Below are positions 4,680-16,088 of a stretch of 59,892 bases of DNA, piece after piece. The DNA is from an uncultured Pelagibacteraceae bacterium. GTDB lineage: Bacteria; Pseudomonadota; Alphaproteobacteria; Pelagibacterales; Pelagibacteraceae. A model generated the notes under the pieces. It was not told where the DNA came from and made no database searches. It saw only the letters and a program-made list of their open reading frames with translations. Position 1 is the stretch's first letter, and each line of letters begins with the position of its first letter. The stretch lies in assembly GCA_902528375.1 (NCBI GenBank), contig CABZSS010000005.1, forward strand, positions 1-59,892. The letters run 5' to 3'. The position numbers and the translations under genes are program-made.

Positions 4680-4719
4680 TCGAAGGCACAATTAATCAAA
4701 ATTAATTCAATCATGAGTT

Positions 4720-4742
4720 GACCTGGACTCCGACCTGGAGTC
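4720..4742 (+). promoter_or_regulatory. Paired GANTC sites in a GC-rich direct and inverted repeat upstream of ccrM
   Basis: Two 11-base near-identical direct repeats, GACCTGGACTC (4720-4730) and GACCTGGAGTC (4732-4742), sit 12 bases apart. Each ends in a GANTC site, the recognition sequence expected for CcrM. The two GANTC sites also form a perfect 6-bp inverted repeat (GACTCC/GGAGTC, loop GACCT). The block is strikingly GC-rich for this genome and lies 17-40 bases before the ccrM ATG. In Caulobacter the ccrM leader also carries GANTC sites that affect its expression. That it acts the same way here is inference. Confidence 0.6.
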
Positions 4743-4759
4743 TAATTGTTTCTTTTAAA

Positions 4760-5839
4760 ATGACAGGGTTAGACTTAAAGAACAAAATTATTAACGGGGA
4801 CAGTCTTAAAGAATTAAAAAAAATTCCAGATGAGACTTTCGATTTAGTTTTTGCAGATCCGCCTTACAACCTTCAACTTAAAAATAAACTAATTAGACCA
4901 GATAGATCGAAAGTTAATGCAGTAAATGATAAATGGGATCAATTTGAAAGTTTTAAGAAATATGATGATTTCACTTATACTTGGTTAAGCGAGTGTAAAA
5001 GAATTTTAAAAAAGAATGGAGCCATTTGGGTTATAGGAAGTTATCATAATATATTCAGAGTTGGTGCAGCTATTCAAAATTTAGGTTTTTGGATTTTAAA
5101 CGATGTAATTTGGAACAAAAAAAATCCAATGCCGAATTTTAGAGGAACAAGGTTTACTAATGCTCATGAAACTTTAATTTGGGCTTCAAAATCAGAGAAA
5201 TCAAAATATACCTTTAATTATCAGTCATTAAAATGCTTGAATGATGATTTGCAAATGAGATCCAATTGGGATTTGCCTATTTGCAATGGAACAGAACGTT
5301 TAAAAAAAGATGGAAAGAAAGTTCATTCGACACAAAAACCAGAAGCTTTACTTCATAGAATTTTATTAGCAACTTCAAATAAAAATGATTTAATTCTTGA
5401 TCCATTTTTAGGATCAGGAACGACTGCAACAGTTGCAAAAAAATTGAGTAGAAATTATTACGGTATAGAAAAAGAAAAATACTATTTTAAAGCTGCCGAA
5501 CAAAGATTGAAGAATACAAAACCAATAGAAGATCATTATTTAGATACGCTTAAAAACAATAAATCAAAACCAAGAGTACCTTTTGGTTCATTGGTTGAAT
5601 TGGGAATAATCAAGCCTGGTACTATTATTTTTGATGACAAAAAGAAAATCAGTGCGAAAATTATGGTTGATGGGAGTATCAAACATGCTCAAACCGAAGG
5701 TTCAATTCATAAGGTTGCAGCTACAATTTTAGGAGCTGAAAGCTGTAATGGGTGGACATATTGGCATTGTGAATTAGGAAATACTTTTGTACCAATAGAT
5801 AATTTAAGACAAAAATTCTTGTCAAAAAATTATTTATAA
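4760..5839 (+). CDS. ccrM: Cell-cycle adenine DNA methyltransferase CcrM (GANTC)
   Basis: 359 aa from the ATG at 4760, very close to Caulobacter CcrM; an upstream in-frame ATG at 4718 would put the GANTC repeat inside the coding region and is unlikely. Methylates adenine in GANTC. It shows the beta-class order: catalytic DPPY at residues ~33-36, then the AdoMet motif DPFLGSGTT near residue 217. The C-terminal ~80 residues contain the CcrM-specific domain (GSIHKVAATILGAESCNGWTYW), absent from restriction-type relatives. It overlaps the convergent monooxygenase gene by 10 bases. Probably self-regulated through the GANTC repeat just upstream. Confidence 0.95.
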   Translation: MTGLDLKNKIINGDSLKELKKIPDETFDLVFADPPYNLQLKNKLIRPDRSKVNAVNDKWDQFESFKKYDDFTYTWLSECKRILKKNGAIWVIGSYHNIFRVGAAIQNLGFWILNDVIWNKKNPMPNFRGTRFTNAHETLIWASKSEKSKYTFNYQSLKCLNDDLQMRSNWDLPICNGTERLKKDGKKVHSTQKPEALLHRILLATSNKNDLILDPFLGSGTTATVAKKLSRNYYGIEKEKYYFKAAEQRLKNTKPIEDHYLDTLKNNKSKPRVPFGSLVELGIIKPGTIIFDDKKKISAKIMVDGSIKHAQTEGSIHKVAATILGAESCNGWTYWHCELGNTFVPIDNLRQKFLSKNYL

Positions 5840-6972
5840 ATTTTTCCTAAATAACTCTCTAAAAATTTTTTATTTCTTACTAATTTTTTCAAAAAAATAT
5901 TTCTAAAATATACAGTTAAGGGATTTGATAAATGAAAAGCAAACTGATTTAATTTTGATCTATTATTTACCATTTTTGTTTTATTAATTCTTCTTGTAAA
6001 AAAATCGGTTCTGGAATCGCTTTCTATACTTTCAAATAATTCGTACGCACTTTCTATCGATTGAGATGCGCCCTGGGCAAATGATGGTGGAAAAGCAAAA
6101 AAAGCGTCTCCTATTAGATAAATGTTCTTTTTTTTTAACTCAGAAAAATTATCACTGACAAAAACAGGAAATATTTTTAATTCTTTAATATTATTAAAAA
6201 ATTCTTTGTTTTCATGTGGAATATTATTCAGAATTTTTTGTATAAATAATTTATCATCAAACAATGAGTAATTATTTTGTTCGTCTGCTGAAAGTTTATA
6301 TTTCATTATAGCTATTAAGTTTAAATCTCCATCTGGAGAAACAGGATAAATTACATGATGAAAATCAGAGCCCAAAAATAACAAAATATTCTTTTTATCA
6401 ATTATATTGAAATTTGTGGGTATCATTCCCCTTATAGCTAAAGTATCGTTATATTTTGGTTGAATTTGTTTATTTGAAACGAGATTTCTACTTTTTGAAA
6501 AAACCCCGTCAGAAATAATTAAATAATCACATTCGTGAGTTTCTTTATTTTCAAAAATAAGTTTTATTTTCTCTTGCTCTTGATCAATTTTCGAGACGCT
6601 ATAATTTGTTTTGATCAAATCTTCTAAATCTTTTTTTAGAAAGTTGATTAAAACCGATCTTTTCAAAGTAGTATACTTACAATCATTTGAATTAAATTTA
6701 GATATATCTAGTTCACATATTTTTACTTGATCTTTTTTTGAATAAAAATTTATTTTTTCTGGATTAAATTTTTTGTTTTTTTCCAATTTATTAAATCCAA
6801 TTTCATTTAAAAATTTGACACTGTTTGTAGATAATTGCACACCATACCCTTCCCTTAAATTGAGAGATTTTTTTTTATCAAAAATCGATACTTGATATTT
6901 AGGATTTTTTTTAAAAAGATTGGCTATGAATAATCCTGATATTCCTGCTCCGATAATTCCAATTTTTTTCAT
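5830..6972 (-). CDS. FAD-dependent aromatic-ring monooxygenase-like protein
   Basis: 380 aa, PHBH/UbiH-type flavoprotein fold. N-terminal Rossmann motif GIIGAGISGL binds the ADP part of FAD. The middle DGVFSKSRNLV corresponds to the family DG motif. The C-terminal YLIGDAFFAFPPSFAQGAS is the GD motif contacting the ribityl chain. The substrate cannot be told; ubiquinone-ring hydroxylases, kynurenine monooxygenase-like and salicylate hydroxylase-like enzymes share this pattern. It follows mutY with a 4-base ATGA overlap, so it is translationally coupled to it. The C-terminal ~40 residues after the GD helix are basic and might touch membrane. Confidence 0.8.
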   Translation of the reverse strand: MKKIGIIGAGISGLFIANLFKKNPKYQVSIFDKKKSLNLREGYGVQLSTNSVKFLNEIGFNKLEKNKKFNPEKINFYSKKDQVKICELDISKFNSNDCKYTTLKRSVLINFLKKDLEDLIKTNYSVSKIDQEQEKIKLIFENKETHECDYLIISDGVFSKSRNLVSNKQIQPKYNDTLAIRGMIPTNFNIIDKKNILLFLGSDFHHVIYPVSPDGDLNLIAIMKYKLSADEQNNYSLFDDKLFIQKILNNIPHENKEFFNNIKELKIFPVFVSDNFSELKKKNIYLIGDAFFAFPPSFAQGASQSIESAYELFESIESDSRTDFFTRRINKTKMVNNRSKLNQFAFHLSNPLTVYFRNIFLKKLVRNKKFLESYLGKIYK

Positions 6973-7958
6973 ACATTGCTTGAAGCTACTCTAAATAATT
7001 TTTTTGTAAAAGATGGTATTACTTCACTTGCTATATTCTTTGGGTTTAAAATTACACCTTTATTTGTTGATTTAATCTTATTTTTGTTAATTACAATATT
7101 CATATCAATATTTGATATCTTAATTTTTGTTTTTATGTTCAGCGAAGAATAAAATTTTGACTTATTTATTTCATTCATTGGAAAGATTAATAGATTCTTA
7201 AGAAAGTTAAATTTATTATTTCTAACTAATAACATTTTATTTTCATTCATATAAATATTTGCCTCAAAATATTTGGTCTTGTTTCTTTTTATTTTTTTTA
7301 TTAAGGAAAAATCTTTTCGCTTATATGAAATACAATTTATACTTATTGGACACTTCTCACATAATGGGGAGGTAGGTCTGCATACTAAAGCACCTAATTC
7401 CATAATGGCTTGCGCATAATCACTTGCTCTTTCTGATAATCCAAAAAAATTTTTTGAAATTTGCATATTTTCTTTTGATATATCTTTATCGCTTCTAAGG
7501 TATAGAACTCTTTTAAGAATTCTTTCAACATTTCCATCCAAAGGAATAAATTTTTGATTGAAAGCAATAGCCATTATTGCGGTAGACGTATAATCACCAA
7601 CTCCAGGCAAAGATTTTAAATCTTCAAAATTAGATGGTAAAATTCCACCGAATTTGCCAACAATCATTATCGCAGATTTTTTTAGATTTCTAGCTCTGGA
7701 GTAGTAACCCAGTCCTTCCCATAACTTCATTAGTGTTTGATCATTTGTTTTAGACAATTTTTTAAAGTTTGGAATTTTTTGTATAAATCTATTGAAATAA
7801 GGAATGACGGTTGAAACTTGAGTTTGTTGCAACATAAACTCACTAAGTAACGTAAAATAAAGTTTTTGTTCCTTAGAAGTATTTTTTCTCCATGGTAAAA
7901 TTCTCTTATTATTATCGTACCAAAACAAAATTTTTTTTGATATAGTTGACTTATTCAT
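6969..7958 (-). CDS. mutY: A/G-specific adenine glycosylase
   Basis: 329 aa; removes adenine mispaired with 8-oxoguanine. Visible are the MLQQTQV motif with the catalytic-domain Gln, the helix-hairpin-helix LPGVGDYT near residue 119, the catalytic Asp in PLDGNVERIL, and the iron-sulfur loop with C-x6-C-x2-C-x5-C spacing (CRPTSPLCEKCPISINC). The C-terminal NUDIX-like domain is short and degenerate. Its ATG (7956-7958 read backwards) overlaps the ATG of the divergent DUF721 gene by two bases. The homologous N-terminus of other MutY proteins supports this start. Confidence 0.95.
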   Translation of the reverse strand: MNKSTISKKILFWYDNNKRILPWRKNTSKEQKLYFTLLSEFMLQQTQVSTVIPYFNRFIQKIPNFKKLSKTNDQTLMKLWEGLGYYSRARNLKKSAIMIVGKFGGILPSNFEDLKSLPGVGDYTSTAIMAIAFNQKFIPLDGNVERILKRVLYLRSDKDISKENMQISKNFFGLSERASDYAQAIMELGALVCRPTSPLCEKCPISINCISYKRKDFSLIKKIKRNKTKYFEANIYMNENKMLLVRNNKFNFLKNLLIFPMNEINKSKFYSSLNIKTKIKISNIDMNIVINKNKIKSTNKGVILNPKNIASEVIPSFTKKLFRVASSNV

Positions 7959-8424
7959 GAATTTTAATTCTAATCAGAGATCTAAAGTCATTCAAGGGTT
8001 AAGATCCTTTAAAGACACTTTACCCACAAAAGTAAAAAAATTGTTAAAGCAAAAAGGAGAGGTTTATTCTGAACTTATAGAAAATTGGAGAATTTTTGTG
8101 GGTGATGAGCTGTTTTCTCTAAGTTATCCAAAAAAATATTTGAGTTCTAACAAGTTTAGAAAATCGGTATTGGAAGTTATGGTTAAAAGAGGTCACGAGG
8201 TAGAATTAGAGTATTCAAAAAAAAAAATAATAGAGAAGATTAATTCTTTTTTTGGATATGATTTAATTTCAACATTAAAAGTGTATACCTTTGACAGTAA
8301 AGATGAAAAACTAAAAAACGTTAAAAAAGGTAATTCCAAAATTAATTTAGGGGAAATTAAAAATAAAAAAATTGAAAATTCTTTAAAAGAATTCGCTAAA
8401 GTGTATAGAGAAAAAAATGATTAA
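7957..8424 (+). CDS. DUF721 / DciA-like protein
   Basis: 155 aa, basic. The conserved DUF721 core is visible: SELIENWRIFVGDELFSLSYPKKY followed by the hydrophobic VLEVMVKRGHEVELEY strand-helix. DUF721 includes DciA, a loader or partner of the DnaB helicase in bacteria lacking DnaC, and a replication role is possible. The C-terminal ~45 residues are Lys-rich and look disordered. Gene order mutY-DUF721-dsbA-smc is shared widely by alphaproteobacteria, which supports the call. It overlaps the DsbA gene by 8 bases. The start codon shares two bases with divergent mutY, so each promoter must lie in the other's coding region. Confidence 0.8.
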   Translation: MNFNSNQRSKVIQGLRSFKDTLPTKVKKLLKQKGEVYSELIENWRIFVGDELFSLSYPKKYLSSNKFRKSVLEVMVKRGHEVELEYSKKKIIEKINSFFGYDLISTLKVYTFDSKDEKLKNVKKGNSKINLGEIKNKKIENSLKEFAKVYREKND

Positions 8425-8995
8425 GAAAATTTTTGTACTAATAATTTTTGTCCTATTCCAAACAAATATTAACGCATCTTCCTTCAAACCAATAATTGAG
8501 GGAAGAGAAGACGCAAAAATTAAACTAATAATTTACGAGTCTCTTACTTGTTCATTCTGTGCAGATTTTCATAATAAAGTTTACCCTGAATTAAAAAAAG
8601 AATTTATTGATACTGGTGTTATTAATATTGAATTTAGAAATTTCCCATTAGACATGGCAGCATTAAATGCATCTAAACTGGCTCATTGTAATAATGATGG
8701 CAAATCAGACTTACTACATTTTTTATATTCTAACCAAAAAACGTGGGCCAGAGGATCAACGATTGAAGAACTTAATTCAAACTTGTCATCAGTTATAAAA
8801 TTATTTGGAAAACCACTAGATGAAGAAAAGTGTTTTTCTAACACTGAGTTAGAGGCCTTTATTTTGAAAGAACGAATCGAGGGTGTAAAAGAATTTGATA
8901 TAAATTCAACCCCTACACTTATTTTAAACGATCAAAAGTTTGAAAAAACGCTATCGTTTAAAAATTTAAAAAAAGCCATAGAAAAACTGTTATAA
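8417..8995 (+). CDS. DsbA-family thiol:disulfide interchange protein
   Basis: 192 aa. Residues 1-20 form a signal peptide (cleavage near INA), so it acts in the periplasm. The thioredoxin-fold redox motif CSFC is at residues 45-48, preceded by the strand KLIIYESLT. The cis-proline loop is NSTPTLIL near residue 168. The helical insertion between is the right size for DsbA/BdbD-like proteins. It belongs to the conserved alphaproteobacterial cluster between DUF721 and smc. Whether it acts mainly as an oxidase or isomerase cannot be decided from sequence. Confidence 0.88.
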   Translation: MIKKIFVLIIFVLFQTNINASSFKPIIEGREDAKIKLIIYESLTCSFCADFHNKVYPELKKEFIDTGVINIEFRNFPLDMAALNASKLAHCNNDGKSDLLHFLYSNQKTWARGSTIEELNSNLSSVIKLFGKPLDEEKCFSNTELEAFILKERIEGVKEFDINSTPTLILNDQKFEKTLSFKNLKKAIEKLL

Positions 8996-9002
8996 TTCCT
9001 TG

Positions 9003-11399
9003 ATGGAATTTAAAAAAATTCAGTTAAATGGTTTTAAATCTTTCGCAGATAAAACAAGTTTACTTATTGAGGATGGTCTAACTGGAATAGTTGGTCCAAA
9101 CGGATGTGGTAAATCAAATATCGTTGAGTCTTTAAGATGGTGTATGGGTGAAACATCAGCAAAAAGTATGAGAGGCTCAGGTATGGAAGATGTAATTTTC
9201 TCTGGCACTTCAAACAAACCTTCCAAAAATATAGCTGAAGTAATTGTAAACCTATCAAACGATGGAAGTCTAGGGTCACACAATTATAAACATATTCCCG
9301 AAATAGAAATTAGAAGAAAGATTGAAAAAGATAAAGGATCAAAGTTTCATATAAATGGAAAAGAAGTAAGGGCAAAAGATGCTCAAATGTTTTTTGCTGA
9401 CCTTTCAACTGGGGCTCACTCTCCATCATTAATAAGCCAAGGTAGAATTGGATCGTTAGTTACAGCAAAACCTAGTGATAGACGGGCAATACTTGAGGAG
9501 GCAGCGGGAATTTCTGGTTTACATGCTAGAAGACATGAAGCTGAAGTAAGATTAAATGCTGCAGAAAATAATTTAAAAAGAGCAGACGAGTTAAGAAGAC
9601 AACAAGAGAAACAATTAATAAATTTACAAAAACAAGCAGAAGAGGCTGGAAAATATAAGATGATCTCAGAAGAAATTAAAAAAATCGAGGCTGGATTATA
9701 TTTTCTAAAATTACAGGAGATAGATAATGAAATTACCTTAGAAAAAGAAATTAATAAAGACTCTGATCAGGAATTTGAAAATATTTCAAACAAAATTAAT
9801 GAAGTTGAAAAAAATATAGAAAGTGAAAGTGCAACAAACACCCCAATTAAAGAAAAAAATTTTGAAATACTTTCTAAAATCCAAAGATTAAACTTGGAAC
9901 TCAAAAGTTTGGATGAGGAAAATGATAGAATAAAAAGAGAGATTGAAAATTTTAAAAATAGTCTTGTTGAAATAGATAATGATTTGGATAGAGAAAAAGG
10001 TATTACGATTGATGCTAATTCAAATGAAAAAAGATTAAAGCAGGAAAAAAATGATTTAATCGATATTGATACAAAATATTACGATACTGAAAAAAAATCT
10101 AATGATGATCTTTTTTCTGTAAAAGATAAACTTAAAAACAATCTTGAAAACGTAAAAAATTTAATCGGTCAAAACCAAAGTGATGATGCCATAAAAGCTA
10201 TTGAGGAATGCAAAAATATAATTGAAGAATATGCTGAAAGCTATAGCAAAAACCAAAACATAAAAAATGATTCAATTAAAAGAAAAGAAAGAATAAAAAT
10301 TATTGATACTGAAATTGAAAGTTGGAAAAATCTACTTGGAAATTCTGACAAATCAATAAAACAACTAAATGAAAGAAGACAAAAATCATCTAGTCAATTA
10401 AATCTTTTAGAAAATAAACCAAACACTCAAGCAGAAAAAAAAGGACAGCTTACTGAAAATTTAAGACTTTCTGAAATTGAGAAAGAAGAGAATGAAAAAT
10501 TAATTGAAATTTCAGATAAAAAATCAAACGCCCTTAATCTTGAACTTTCAGAGATTAGAGAAAATTCTATAGAAATAAGAGAAAGGAAAGCGAGTTCAGC
10601 AGCAACAATCGATGGTCTGTCAAAAAGAAGAATTGATTTGTTAGAAAGAATTGAAATTGAATTAAATCTTACAGAAAAAAATGTTTTTGAATTCTCAAAC
10701 TTTACAGATCAAAATGATCTCCCAGATGCACTTACGCAAGAGGAATTGCTTGATGAAAAGAAAAGAGAGAGAGACAAACTAGGATCAGTAAATCTAAGAG
10801 CAGATGAAGAAACAAGCAAATACGAGATTGAAATTAAAAAAATGGAAAAAGATCGATCAGATTTAGTTACAGCCATTGTTAAACTTAAGGAAAGTATTAA
10901 TGAACTAAATCAAAAAGGTCGGGAAAGACTCCTTGAGGCATTTGAAAAAGTTAATAGGAAGTTTAATGAAGTTTATACAAAATTATTTAATGGTGGAAGT
11001 GCGAAACTAGAATTAGTTGACTCTGACGATCCACTTGACGCAGGTTTAGAAATGTTGGTAAGTCCTCCAGGAAAAAGACTTCAGTCAATAACTCTTCTTT
11101 CAGGTGGAGAGCAAGCGCTGACTGCTTTATCTTTAATCTTTGCAGTTTTCTTAACCAACCCTTCACCAATATGTGTTCTTGATGAAGTAGATGCACCTTT
11201 AGATGACGCAAACGTTACTCGTTTTTGTAATCTTTTGGATGAACTCATAAAAATTACTAAAACAAAATTTATTATTGTTACCCATCACGCACTTACAATG
11301 TCAAAAATGAATAGACTTTACGGTGTAACCATGCCAGAGAAAGGCATAAGCCAGCTAGTTTCAGTGGACCTTGAAAAAGCTGAGAGCATGGTTGCCTAG
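9003..11399 (+). CDS. smc: Chromosome-segregation SMC protein, short form without recognisable hinge
   Basis: 798 aa from ATG 9003 (an earlier TTG at 9000 adds one residue). Condensin ATPase that organises the chromosome. The N-terminal head has Walker A GPNGCGKSN (residues ~31-40), the KSMRGSGMEDVIF motif and the ISQGRIG / RRAILEEAAG segment. The C-terminal head has signature LLSGGEQAL, Walker B ICVLDEVDAPLDD and the THH switch. Both arms are coiled coil. Canonical SMC is ~1150 aa with a ~150-200 aa globular hinge. Here the ~470 residues between the heads are almost all charged heptad sequence, with no glycine-rich hinge. It ends directly at the atpI ATG. Confidence 0.9.
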   Translation: MEFKKIQLNGFKSFADKTSLLIEDGLTGIVGPNGCGKSNIVESLRWCMGETSAKSMRGSGMEDVIFSGTSNKPSKNIAEVIVNLSNDGSLGSHNYKHIPEIEIRRKIEKDKGSKFHINGKEVRAKDAQMFFADLSTGAHSPSLISQGRIGSLVTAKPSDRRAILEEAAGISGLHARRHEAEVRLNAAENNLKRADELRRQQEKQLINLQKQAEEAGKYKMISEEIKKIEAGLYFLKLQEIDNEITLEKEINKDSDQEFENISNKINEVEKNIESESATNTPIKEKNFEILSKIQRLNLELKSLDEENDRIKREIENFKNSLVEIDNDLDREKGITIDANSNEKRLKQEKNDLIDIDTKYYDTEKKSNDDLFSVKDKLKNNLENVKNLIGQNQSDDAIKAIEECKNIIEEYAESYSKNQNIKNDSIKRKERIKIIDTEIESWKNLLGNSDKSIKQLNERRQKSSSQLNLLENKPNTQAEKKGQLTENLRLSEIEKEENEKLIEISDKKSNALNLELSEIRENSIEIRERKASSAATIDGLSKRRIDLLERIEIELNLTEKNVFEFSNFTDQNDLPDALTQEELLDEKKRERDKLGSVNLRADEETSKYEIEIKKMEKDRSDLVTAIVKLKESINELNQKGRERLLEAFEKVNRKFNEVYTKLFNGGSAKLELVDSDDPLDAGLEMLVSPPGKRLQSITLLSGGEQALTALSLIFAVFLTNPSPICVLDEVDAPLDDANVTRFCNLLDELIKITKTKFIIVTHHALTMSKMNRLYGVTMPEKGISQLVSVDLEKAESMVA

Positions 11400-11666
11400 A
11401 TGGGTAAAGAACAGTTAAAAGATCGTCTAAAAAATGCACGTAAAAAGTTAAAAGTAGAAAAAGAAAATCCCCAAACATCTAATATTGGACAAGCTTTCAA
11501 ATTGAGCACTGAGTTAGTAGCAGCTGTATTAGTAGGGACAATTATAGGGTTTATTTTAGACAATTGGTTTGATACTAAACCTTGGTTAATAATAATATTT
11601 TTTTTTGTTGGTGTAGTTGCGGGTATATTAAATGTAATTAGGTCAGCAAAAAAACTACAAAATTGA
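11400..11666 (+). CDS. atpI: ATP synthase protein I
   Basis: 88 aa membrane protein that helps assemble the c-ring. It has a basic, Lys-rich N-terminus of about 30 residues, then two transmembrane helices (around residues 37-55 and 60-80) with a short D-x-W-F-x-T turn typical of AtpI in alphaproteobacteria. Its ATG follows the smc stop with no intervening base, implying coupled translation. It begins the F0 operon atpI-atpB-atpE-b'-b. The F1 genes (atpHAGDC) are not in this window, matching the split ATP synthase operons of alphaproteobacteria. Confidence 0.88.
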   Translation: MGKEQLKDRLKNARKKLKVEKENPQTSNIGQAFKLSTELVAAVLVGTIIGFILDNWFDTKPWLIIIFFFVGVVAGILNVIRSAKKLQN

Positions 11667-13782: not shown

Positions 13783-15240
13783 ATGAAATCCATAGTCATA
13801 GGTTCAGGTTTTGGTGGTATATCTGCAGCTCTTAGGCTGAGAGCAAAAGGCCACGAGGTAACCTTAATTGAAAAACAAAATGATTTAGGTGGAAGAGCAA
13901 GAATTTTTAGAAAGAATGGGTTTTCATTTGATGCTGGACCTACAGTAATTACTGCACCTTATCTGATATATGAGTTGTTCGAACTATTTGGTAAAGATCC
14001 AAAAAACTATCTAAACATTAAACCTTTGGATATTTGGTATCAATTCGTTTTTGAAGATGGCACAAAATTCAATTACTCCGGAAATGATGAAGAAATGGAA
14101 AAACAAATATCTGCAATTTCTCCAGATGATTTGAAAGGTTATATCAAATTAGTAAATTTCACTAAAAAAATTTTTGAAAAAGGGTATTTAGAACTTTCAG
14201 ATGTCCCCTTTACGAAACCACTTTTCATGATGAAACAAATTCCATCATTATTAAAGTTAAAAAGTTATAAATCTGTTTATTCTCTTGTGTCCTCATATGT
14301 TAAAAACGAAAAACTTAGAAGAATTCTAAGCATGCATCCTCTTCTTGTGGGTGGTAACCCTTTCACAACAACTTCGATTTATGGCTTAATACTATATTTA
14401 GAAAAGAAATGGGGAATTCATTACTCGATGGGGGGAACTGGAAATATAATTAAGGGTCTTGAAACATTAATGAATGAGGAAAATATAAAAATAAAAAAAG
14501 GCTTTGAGGTAAACAAAATTATTTCAAATGGAAAAACAATTAAAGGTATTCGATTAGAAAACGGTGATGAAATTTCTGCAAATAATGTGGTTTGTAATGC
14601 TGATCCGCCCGATGTCTATGAGAGATTATTAAATAAAAAAGACCTGAATTTTTTTTTCAACTTTAAGAGAAAAAGAATGGATTATTCAATGGGTTTATTT
14701 GTTTATTACTTTGGAACTAAAAAAGTTTATAAGGATGTTGCTCACCATACAATTAAATTTGGTAACAAATATAAAGAACATTTAGATGATATTTTTGATA
14801 AAAAAAAACTTAATGATGATATTAGCTATTATCTGCATCGACCTACAGCAACAGATAATTCAATGGCACCAGATGGATGTGATTGTTTTTATGTTCTAGT
14901 CCCAGTTCCTAATAATCAATCAAATATAAATTGGTCGGTAAGTGGTGAAAAAATTAAAAATTTAGTAATTGATAAAATGGAAAAGGATTTACTTCCAAAC
15001 TTAAGAGAAAACATAATAGAGGATTTCTACTTAACACCCGACTATTTTGAAAAAGATCTTAACACAAAATTTGGATCAGGCTTTTCAATTCAACCAAAAT
15101 TTACACAATCTGCTTATTTTAGATTTCACAACAAGTCTGAAATTTATGATGGATTATATTTTGTTGGTGCTGGAACACATCCTGGTGCTGGTGTGCCTGG
15201 AGTTTTATCATCAGCAAAAGTTTTAGATAAAATTCTTTAA
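13783..15240 (+). CDS. crtI: Phytoene desaturase
   Basis: 485 aa FAD-dependent enzyme that converts phytoene to lycopene. The N-terminal dinucleotide motif IVIGSGFGGISAALRL is followed by EKQNDLGGRARIF and FDAGPTVIT, characteristic of bacterial CrtI. The C-terminal FVGAGTHPGAGVPGVLSSAK is the family signature. It begins the set crtI-crtB-crtY-blh, the pathway from geranylgeranyl diphosphate to retinal. The next gene starts at the last base of its TAA. No crtE is present nearby, so geranylgeranyl diphosphate must come from a gene elsewhere. Confidence 0.95.
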   Translation: MKSIVIGSGFGGISAALRLRAKGHEVTLIEKQNDLGGRARIFRKNGFSFDAGPTVITAPYLIYELFELFGKDPKNYLNIKPLDIWYQFVFEDGTKFNYSGNDEEMEKQISAISPDDLKGYIKLVNFTKKIFEKGYLELSDVPFTKPLFMMKQIPSLLKLKSYKSVYSLVSSYVKNEKLRRILSMHPLLVGGNPFTTTSIYGLILYLEKKWGIHYSMGGTGNIIKGLETLMNEENIKIKKGFEVNKIISNGKTIKGIRLENGDEISANNVVCNADPPDVYERLLNKKDLNFFFNFKRKRMDYSMGLFVYYFGTKKVYKDVAHHTIKFGNKYKEHLDDIFDKKKLNDDISYYLHRPTATDNSMAPDGCDCFYVLVPVPNNQSNINWSVSGEKIKNLVIDKMEKDLLPNLRENIIEDFYLTPDYFEKDLNTKFGSGFSIQPKFTQSAYFRFHNKSEIYDGLYFVGAGTHPGAGVPGVLSSAKVLDKIL

Positions 15241-16088
15241 TGGCGAATAATCTTTTATCAATTCACGCAAAGTCTTTTAGCTGGGCTGGATTTTTCTTGC
15301 CTAGTGATGTTTATAAAAATGGATCTAACCTATATGATTTTTGTAGAATATTAGATGATATTGCTGATGAAGAAATATCTTTAGAGATTAAAAAGAAAAA
15401 ATTTCTTGATTACAAAAATGACTTTATTAACCAAAACTTCGAAAACGATAGTATCAAAAAGATACATAATATTATTAAAAACTTCGGTGTATCAGAACAA
15501 ATTGTTCTCGATCTTTTTGATGGCATTGAGTCTGATTTAAAAGAAAAAATAGAATTTAAATCTAGAAGAGAGCTGCTAGTATATTCTTATAGAGTGGCTG
15601 GAACAGTAGGTTTGATGATGGCAAAAATTCTTAAAGTAAAATCTAAAACAGCTCTGAAATCTGCAATTGATCTAGGGATAGCGATGCAGCTTACAAATAT
15701 TTCTAGAGATGTAATAGAAGATAGAAATAAAAATAGAGAATACATCAGGCATGACCTTTCAAATATAAAAAATACAATTAATACTGCAGATTTGTTTTAT
15801 AATAGTTGTTTTAATTCAATCAGAGAAATTCCAATTAGGTGCCGTTTCGCTATATTAGTCGCTCGCAGAGTTTATAGAGAGATTGGTTATAAAATCATCA
15901 AAAAAGGAGACATTGAGGAATATAATCGATCTGGAAAAATTTATGTTACTAAAACTGGCAAAATCATTCAAACAATTTTAAGTATTTTTGATTTTTTTAG
16001 ATTATTATTTATTCAATCAGATAATTATTACAGAAATGAAGAGCATAATGAAATTGATTTAGAAATTAATATAGATGAAAGAATTTGA
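15240..16088 (+). CDS. crtB: Phytoene synthase
   Basis: 282 aa; condenses two geranylgeranyl diphosphates into phytoene. It has the two Asp-rich Mg-diphosphate motifs: LDDIADE (residues ~38-44) and NISRDVIEDRNKNR (near residue 155). The YRVAGTVGLMMAKIL helix between them is conserved in squalene/phytoene synthases. Start and upstream stop share one base (TAATG), showing translational coupling to crtI. It overlaps crtY by 14 bases. Confidence 0.95.
   Translation: MANNLLSIHAKSFSWAGFFLPSDVYKNGSNLYDFCRILDDIADEEISLEIKKKKFLDYKNDFINQNFENDSIKKIHNIIKNFGVSEQIVLDLFDGIESDLKEKIEFKSRRELLVYSYRVAGTVGLMMAKILKVKSKTALKSAIDLGIAMQLTNISRDVIEDRNKNREYIRHDLSNIKNTINTADLFYNSCFNSIREIPIRCRFAILVARRVYREIGYKIIKKGDIEEYNRSGKIYVTKTGKIIQTILSIFDFFRLLFIQSDNYYRNEEHNEIDLEINIDERI

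Follow-up and report, generated by a model that had tools for sequence, protein, structure and literature searches.

The hinge domain appears to have been lost from the SMC protein across SAR11 (Pelagibacterales), with the partner proteins of the complex retained. SMC proteins normally dimerise through the hinge, which lies at the tip of the arm, and in the DNA-entrapment and loop-extrusion models of SMC the hinge is the joint that closes the ring. The window analysed here, a stretch of 59,892 nucleotides from an uncultured Pelagibacteraceae bacterium, carries an smc gene for a protein that consists of two complete ATPase head halves and a shortened coiled-coil arm.

The smc gene of the window

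The hinge-less smc gene (798 aa; positions 9003 to 11399, forward strand) was identified from its open reading frame, its match to TIGR02168 and the lengths of homologous loci. It runs in a single frame from the ATG at 9003 to the end of the stop codon at 11399; this start, already proposed in an earlier note on the same DNA, agrees with the homologues (the ORF finder had set it at a TTG at 9000, one codon upstream). The note had also described both heads as complete. Pfam SMC_N scored 153 bits, and Walker A (GPNGCGKSN, residues 31-39), the signature (LLSGGEQ, 698-704) and Walker B (ICVLDE, 723-728) were located by reading, their residues being invariant or nearly so among 53 aligned sequences. 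The N-terminal half of the head (residues 1-170; 9003 to 9512, forward strand) was delimited with SMC_N and the PDB Smc heads 3zgx, 5xg3 and 5h68, and its border with the arm at residue 170/171 was set where the arm helix is predicted to begin. The C-terminal half (residues 656-798; 10968 to 11396, forward strand) was delimited with SMC_N, TIGR02168 and the PDB Smc heads.

Between the head halves lie the N-terminal strand of the arm, a single predicted helix (residues 171-389; 9513 to 10169, forward strand), an apex turn placed from AlphaFold2 and position counts (residues 390-392; 10170 to 10178, forward strand), and the C-terminal strand, made up of predicted helices (residues 393-655, head-side limit approximate; 10179 to 10967, forward strand). 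The apex turn, flanked by a conserved turn motif recognised from position counts (residues 387-400), occupies the spot where a hinge of ~115 residues would be expected. The note's reading of the middle as charged coiled coil holds: D, E, K and R make up 40% of residues 230-600, which contain 7 glycines, and two long helices are predicted. The break it had noticed near residue ~385 is close to the predicted turn.

The whole window protein scored 662 bits with TIGR02168 (SMC_prok_B, an NCBIfam equivalog; cut-off 567.35). In the genome search, columns 2-382 and 774-1181 of this 1181-column model were matched and columns 383-773, the part holding the hinge, were skipped. What is absent from the window SMC is the hinge together with adjoining coil on both sides.

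A protein of this shape might no longer be the chromosomal Smc and might instead serve as a repair ATPase like Rad50/SbcC or RecN, given a similar hinge-less arm architecture and weak matches to Rad50 models. This is very improbable, since the best Rad50 model reached 35.3 bits against 662 for SMC_prok_B, and the best solved relatives, among 53 distinct PDB sequences matched at E<=0.001, are Smc heads. Moreover, the heads nest among alphaproteobacterial Smc, ScpAB is retained in the order and a zinc hook is lacking, as detailed below. Judged by its sequence and that of its relatives, the window protein is the chromosomal Smc of a Smc-ScpAB complex.

Absence of the hinge across the order

At E<=10, Pfam SMC_hinge had no match in the window protein or in the 68.5%-complete genome that the window comes from; at E<=0.001 it had none across 148 Pelagibacterales genomes. 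The Caulobacter control was detected by Pfam SMC_hinge at E<=10 and missed at E<=0.001, so that the Pfam negative alone is weak, and a hinge profile of our own was therefore built from an alignment of 28 alphaproteobacterial hinges; L126, L140, L141, L143 and L147, which show no hinge anchor motif, were left out. This profile matched 72 of 104 class genomes (weakest match, 57.7 bits), a count that is partly by construction because the 28 rows derive from these genomes. The 104 include 28 genomes without Smc (best TIGR02168 E above 1e-20) and two Pelagibacterales (G000 and G001). By the same profile, the hinge was present in 72/74 non-Pelagibacterales Alphaproteobacteria genomes with an SMC; the two misses, G161 and G183, have their Smc in pieces on different contigs and cannot be judged.

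None of the 148 Pelagibacterales genomes was matched by our profile at E<=0.1. A single match at E 0.106, in a frame of 294 aa and covering half of the profile, has the look of a chance hit. We considered whether the hinge had merely diverged too far for Pfam; this was rejected, the alphaproteobacterial profile being negative in all 148 genomes as well. The same result, along with the Pfam negative, makes it scarcely credible that a hinge is provided in trans by another gene. The earlier note had claimed a real SMC without a hinge, and the claim stands on the TIGR02168 score above cut-off, the absent columns and the 0/148 count. As for what it had set beforehand as refuters, no SMC_hinge profile match was seen (Pfam, E<=10; own profile, E<=0.1), and the close relatives, where full-hinge homologues might have turned up, are hinge-less too.

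Length and spread of the hinge-less form

Homologous loci were the best 80 from GTDB 220 genomes, chosen with the window protein, so the sample favours close relatives. Their SMC was 798 aa long in 72/80 and 857 aa in 6/80, and was cut by a contig end in 2/80 (L016 and L018). The full set comprised 87 loci, nine of them without a complete SMC: the two just named and L001-L007, which are stretches of the window's own genome (2 around smc and 5 other ATPase matches).

TIGR02168 matched in 143/148 order genomes, though no better than E 1e-4 to 1e-5 in G053, G083, G089 and G124; Smc was present in 139/148, and none was seen in the other 9, not all of which are complete. In the per-genome search, which scored pieces separately, 85/148 scored above the cut-off; the pieces from the window did not. 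Among the matches listed, which span nine genera and two families, order Smc frames were 799 to 891 aa long, leaving aside frames cut by contig ends (G012, 746 aa; G047, 479; G074, 533; G029, 811; G033, 852). By contrast, Smc frames in the class outside Pelagibacterales were at least 1104 aa long, with G172 at 869 aa as the sole exception; genes in pieces (G161, G183, G212, G219, G220 and G225) were left out of this survey. In the phylum (150 genomes, 85 above the TIGR02168 cut-off), no other intact short Smc was found among the matches listed; the Smc of G312 is split between contigs, and G282 and G380 gave only fragments of 53-58 aa. The motif search for an Smc frame found none in L113, L119, L120 and L158, the last from an SMC-less genome.

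An assembly deletion, a frameshift or a decaying gene was weighed as an explanation for the short protein, as the window's genome is a draft of 68.5% completeness and the smc of G080 carries an in-frame TAG after 391 residues, exactly at the apex. The probability of this is negligible: the length of 798 aa is shared by 72/80 loci from separate genomes, hinge-less Smc also occurs in single-contig genomes (e.g. G001, G003, G009 and G015), and dN/dS is 0.04. For the window's own gene, frameshift, assembly deletion and decay are refuted by the length of the homologues and by dN/dS, and the note had been right, from the single frame, to discount a frameshift artefact. The hinge-less SMC is real and order-wide in SAR11.

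Descent and gene neighbourhood

A maximum-likelihood tree was built from the heads only, with 54 rows all from the class (L095 and L141 were dropped for want of a head-cutting motif). The 22 hinge-less proteins formed one clade with support of 100/100 among full-length alphaproteobacterial Smc, which suggests that there was probably one loss; most simply, the hinge would have been lost once, at the base of SAR11. Branching order outside the hinge-less clade was poorly supported. The coil lost with the hinge amounts to roughly 115-130 residues on each strand. Horizontal transfer from the hinge-less clade of Actinobacteria was considered and is spoken against by this tree of class rows.

Upstream of smc lie genes for a MutY-like HhH-GPD glycosylase (6969 to 7958, reverse strand; PF00730), which has the same place in locus L148 of G172, for DciA (DUF721; 7957 to 8424, forward strand; PF05258) and, directly upstream, for a thioredoxin-fold, DsbA-like protein (8417 to 8995, forward strand; PF13462). 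Directly downstream, the atp genes begin with one for a small ATP synthase-associated protein (11400 to 11666, forward strand; PF09527). The order DNA methylase, MutY-like, DciA, DsbA-like, smc and atp genes is common to the window, where it was read by Pfam, and to L148, where ORF order was compared by eye. Given that this neighbourhood is shared with a hinged Smc, the hinge-less smc of SAR11 is its orthologue.

G172 is a 1.41-Mb, single-contig alphaproteobacterial genome, probably HIMB59. Its Smc of 869 aa has a complete hinge (122.6 bits with our own hinge profile, of which G172 is itself one row), and the idea that it represents a half-eroded intermediate was rejected on that account. Its position in the tree is unsure owing to a long branch. 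By one rough yardstick, the arm measures ~222 residues per strand in G172, ~241 in SAR11 and ~364 in the full-length Smc of L121. Since G172 combines a small genome and short arms with an intact hinge, these features alone do not bring about hinge loss, and genome streamlining, which the earlier note had offered as a possible cause, is not sufficient by itself. Three major length modes of 238, 341 and 515 have been described for prokaryotic Smc arms (PMC5344682); the SAR11 arm lies near the 238 mode, a likeness that is only suggestive, as head boundaries were set differently there.

Retention of complex partners and purifying selection

ScpA was found in 89/98 Pelagibacterales genomes and ScpB likewise in 89/98, the same 9 lacking both. 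The search for scpA and scpB that the note had proposed was thus positive for the order; the window's own genome, at 68.5% completeness, yielded neither gene. ParB was present in 56/58 Pelagibacterales genomes, that of the window included. Class genomes without SMC also lacked ScpB in 26/28 cases, these 26 being 2.3 Mb or smaller, whereas ScpB was present in 12/12 hand-picked class genomes with SMC, which links the retention of ScpAB to a working Smc.

In comparison with three relatives of 97% identity, dN/dS of smc was ~0.04 overall, 0-0.02 in the heads, 0.04-0.06 in the arms and 0.08-0.12 at the apex; against two distant relatives it was 0.07 and 0.11, with dS saturated. These values show strong purifying selection on smc. 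Given this low dN/dS and the retention of ScpA, ScpB and ParB, the SAR11 complex is very likely in use, and its hinge-less SMC very likely functional.

Predicted structure and conservation of the apex

The window SMC was modelled as a single chain with AlphaFold2 from 53 sequences. Helices were predicted at residues 171-389, 393-470, 472-553, 576-592 and 600-662, with the turn at 390-392. Around the apex, 10-residue blocks had pLDDT values of 82-87 and no strand was predicted; the model as a whole is of modest confidence, with pLDDT 74.8 and pTM 0.46, and falls below pLDDT 50 in parts of the head. From the secondary structure of this single-chain model, SAR11 Smc is predicted to consist of the head and a shortened arm (~220-260 residues per strand) that folds back as a tight helical hairpin. 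In the other Pelagibacterales family (f2; L090, 864 aa), the apex was predicted to be all helix, at lower confidence (mean pLDDT 68, apex blocks 50-55). An 'EGYDD..W' motif near the f2 apex was considered as a relic of the hinge; homology is not claimed, the predicted apex being all helix without strands. A Foldseek search of the PDB gave matches to SMC and Rad50 chains and no further information about the apex.

Once the hinge is gone, the sequence itself does not oblige the two strands to pair within one chain, and the N-terminal strand of one Smc could pair with the C-terminal strand of another, the coil itself being the dimer. We regard such an intermolecular coil as improbable. The single-chain model has a three-residue turn, predicted with block pLDDT 82-87 and bearing conserved residues, and a tight conserved turn would be of little use in a swapped dimer.

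Conservation at the apex is uneven. Among 798-aa proteins, Ala396 occurs in 81/81, Ile388 in 80/81 and Asn393 in 78/81, and Ala396 is found in all 22 of the 857-aa proteins examined; the window protein itself deviates at the turn, with Ser at 393 and Gln at 392. A cysteine occupies residue 403 in 57/81 proteins of 798 aa. In a set of 39 non-redundant proteins of 798 aa, residues 381-400 formed a block with a mean entropy of 1.17 bits, the fourth-highest of 40 blocks; most head blocks had 0.04-0.4 bits, but head block 81-100 reached 1.33 and is one of the three that exceed the apex block.

The 857-aa form carries ~30 extra residues per strand at the apex, a 59-residue segment in all. In a tree computed without the apex (45 of 60 rows kept after removal of near-copies), close relatives switched between 798 and 857 aa on no fewer than three occasions. 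The 103 extracted proteins of these two length classes were exactly 798 or exactly 857 aa long, as if the register of the hairpin must be kept. Between genera the apex sequence differs, and other lineages carry additional apex segments. No CXXC was found in any of 133 Pelagibacterales SMCs (some f2 proteins are cut at the end of the stretch), which indicates that there is no zinc hook. The earlier note had supposed that a hinge-less SMC would pair in another way; of the modes it named, a Rad50-like contact through a zinc hook is not supported.

How the complex may be held together

We propose, with a probability of about 0.6, that in the SAR11 Smc-ScpAB complex the kleisin and head engagement keep the head end together, while the tip is open. 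Two Smc molecules would be joined at the head end by an asymmetric ScpA-ScpB bridge, ATP-driven head engagement would provide a second contact there, and contacts between the aligned arms may assist pairing. Such a machine would not be a closed ring but a clamp or rod, kept together by the kleisin and open at the tip; it could still be loaded by ParB and powered by the ATPase cycle of the heads. In B. subtilis, ScpA links one Smc at its neck to the other at its cap, and ATP engages the heads (PMC4255302). Both are contacts at the head end, so the hinge is not needed for either. The repeated gain and loss of the 59-residue apex segment is hard to reconcile with an essential, fixed tip domain.

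The main rival is that the apices themselves pair: the conserved helical turn, or the longer helical tips of other genera, would make a small tip-tip contact and close the ring, similar to a Rad50 hook or a coil-end contact but without zinc. This reading owes its rank to a report (PMC5344682) that a Rad50 zinc hook can take the place of the B. subtilis hinge while growth on rich medium stays normal; the hinge fold was dispensable there, yet a dimerisation domain remained, so that some dimerisation may be important in that organism. Conservation of turn residues among close relatives, the extra apex segments of other lineages and Cys403 are in line with it. On the other hand, the apex block is among the most variable of the protein (1.17 bits, fourth of 40), dN/dS at the apex is 0.08-0.12 against 0.04 overall, apex sequence varies from genus to genus, the 59-residue segment comes and goes, and CXXC is absent from all 133 SMCs. 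Conservation of the turn among close relatives could mean a contact at the tip; it is equally well accounted for by packing within a hairpin turn. Taken together, tip-tip pairing is possible but distinctly less probable than the head-end arrangement.

Implications

SAR11 chromosomes are probably folded by a machine that is joined differently. We consider it an even call that chromosome organisation and segregation in an entire order, among the most abundant bacteria on Earth, rely on a Smc-ScpAB ring with no means of closure at its top. If this is true, a closed SMC ring is unnecessary for SMC motor function, the core machine is a clamp of head, kleisin and kite with short arms, and the hinge has been lost at least twice in marine bacterioplankton, in SAR11 and in Actinobacteria. 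A natural, order-wide complex with ATPase, ScpA, ScpB and ParB but no hinge is suited to testing which components of the machine matter; the G172 Smc, whose arms are similarly short and whose hinge is intact, would be a natural control, and cultured SAR11 strains exist. The border between SAR11 and HIMB59-type bacteria is disputed (PMC10308909), and loss of the hinge may act as a rare marker for it.

Comparison with known systems

A hinge-less SMC clade was described in marine Actinobacteria by Sussfeld et al. 2025 (PMC12153180). That clade and the SAR11 proteins share SMC heads and coil without hinge or CXXC, and both belong to abundant marine bacteria. A further likeness is that the actinobacterial protein, according to the same text, was not found together with a regular SMC in single-cell genomes. 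The actinobacterial clade, however, branches with actinobacterial SMC, whereas the SAR11 clade nests among alphaproteobacterial SMC in our class-only tree; the two losses are probably independent. Unlike that report, the SAR11 case covers a whole order, with ScpAB and ParB partners surveyed. The terms 'SAR11', 'Pelagibacter' and 'Alphaproteobacteri' are all absent from the text of PMC12153180, and no report of a hinge-less SMC in SAR11 was found in the open-access literature, outside which subscription papers and preprints mostly lie. As far as this literature goes, the hinge-less SMC of SAR11, documented in genomes together with its complex partners, is new; the actinobacterial case, probably independent, was already known.

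MukB, MksB and the archaeal ASRP are SMC-like ATPases with altered apical dimerisation. ASRP has only distant similarity to SAR11 Smc (45 bits with its model against a cut-off of 300 for the window protein). Rad50/SbcC resembles SAR11 Smc in having a head and an antiparallel coil without an SMC hinge, but SAR11 Smc has no zinc hook, and its sequence and partners are of the Smc type. With the canonical Smc-ScpAB of B. subtilis and other Alphaproteobacteria, SAR11 has in common the head domains, ScpA, ScpB and ParB; it differs in having no hinge and shorter arms (~241 against ~364 residues per strand in L121). The Smc of G172 shares the gene neighbourhood and short arms of SAR11 but has retained a complete hinge.

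Variation at the arm tip

Relative to window positions 10155-10214, the 857-aa homologues (L059, L150, L179, L181 and others) carry an apical arm extension of 59 residues. Closely related proteins have gained or lost this extension no fewer than three times, and the Smc lengths without and with it are exactly 798 and 857 aa, an alternation which suggests that arm length is quantised. In the other Pelagibacterales family with a hinge-less Smc (L088-L111), an EGYDD..W..F stretch is conserved at the arm tip. The stretch resembles the start of a hinge and may be what is left of one, or else a small tip element of new origin.

The hinge-less Smc of genome G080 (locus L209, 1117-3558; 814 residues) is intact except for an in-frame TAG. 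The TAG falls at residue 392, exactly at the apex of the arm, and divides the gene into halves that are 391 and 422 codons long. A sequencing error, a nonsense mutation and a naturally split Smc are the candidate readings.

Genomic context of smc

A few genes ahead of smc in the window lies a gene (4718-5839) whose product, an N6-adenine DNA methylase that carries a RAMA domain, resembles the cell-cycle methylase CcrM. Directly after the atp genes, an amine-oxidoreductase/phytoene-desaturase-like gene is followed by a phytoene-synthase-family gene (13783-16088), and this pair probably functions in carotenoid (retinal) synthesis.

Smc across Alphaproteobacteria

In the 1.4-Mb genome G172, smc (locus L148, 4699-7305) lies at the same locus as in SAR11; its product is 869 aa long, and in it the arms are very short and the hinge is complete. 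Hinge presence could bear on whether HIMB59-type bacteria are part of SAR11. Among 104 alphaproteobacterial genomes surveyed, Smc was not seen in 28 (best TIGR02168 match E above 1e-20). ScpB was also missing from 26 of these, all with genomes of ≤2.3 Mb. Loss of the entire Smc complex is common in small-genome Alphaproteobacteria, and it is against this frequent loss that the SAR11 complex, kept yet hinge-less, stands out.
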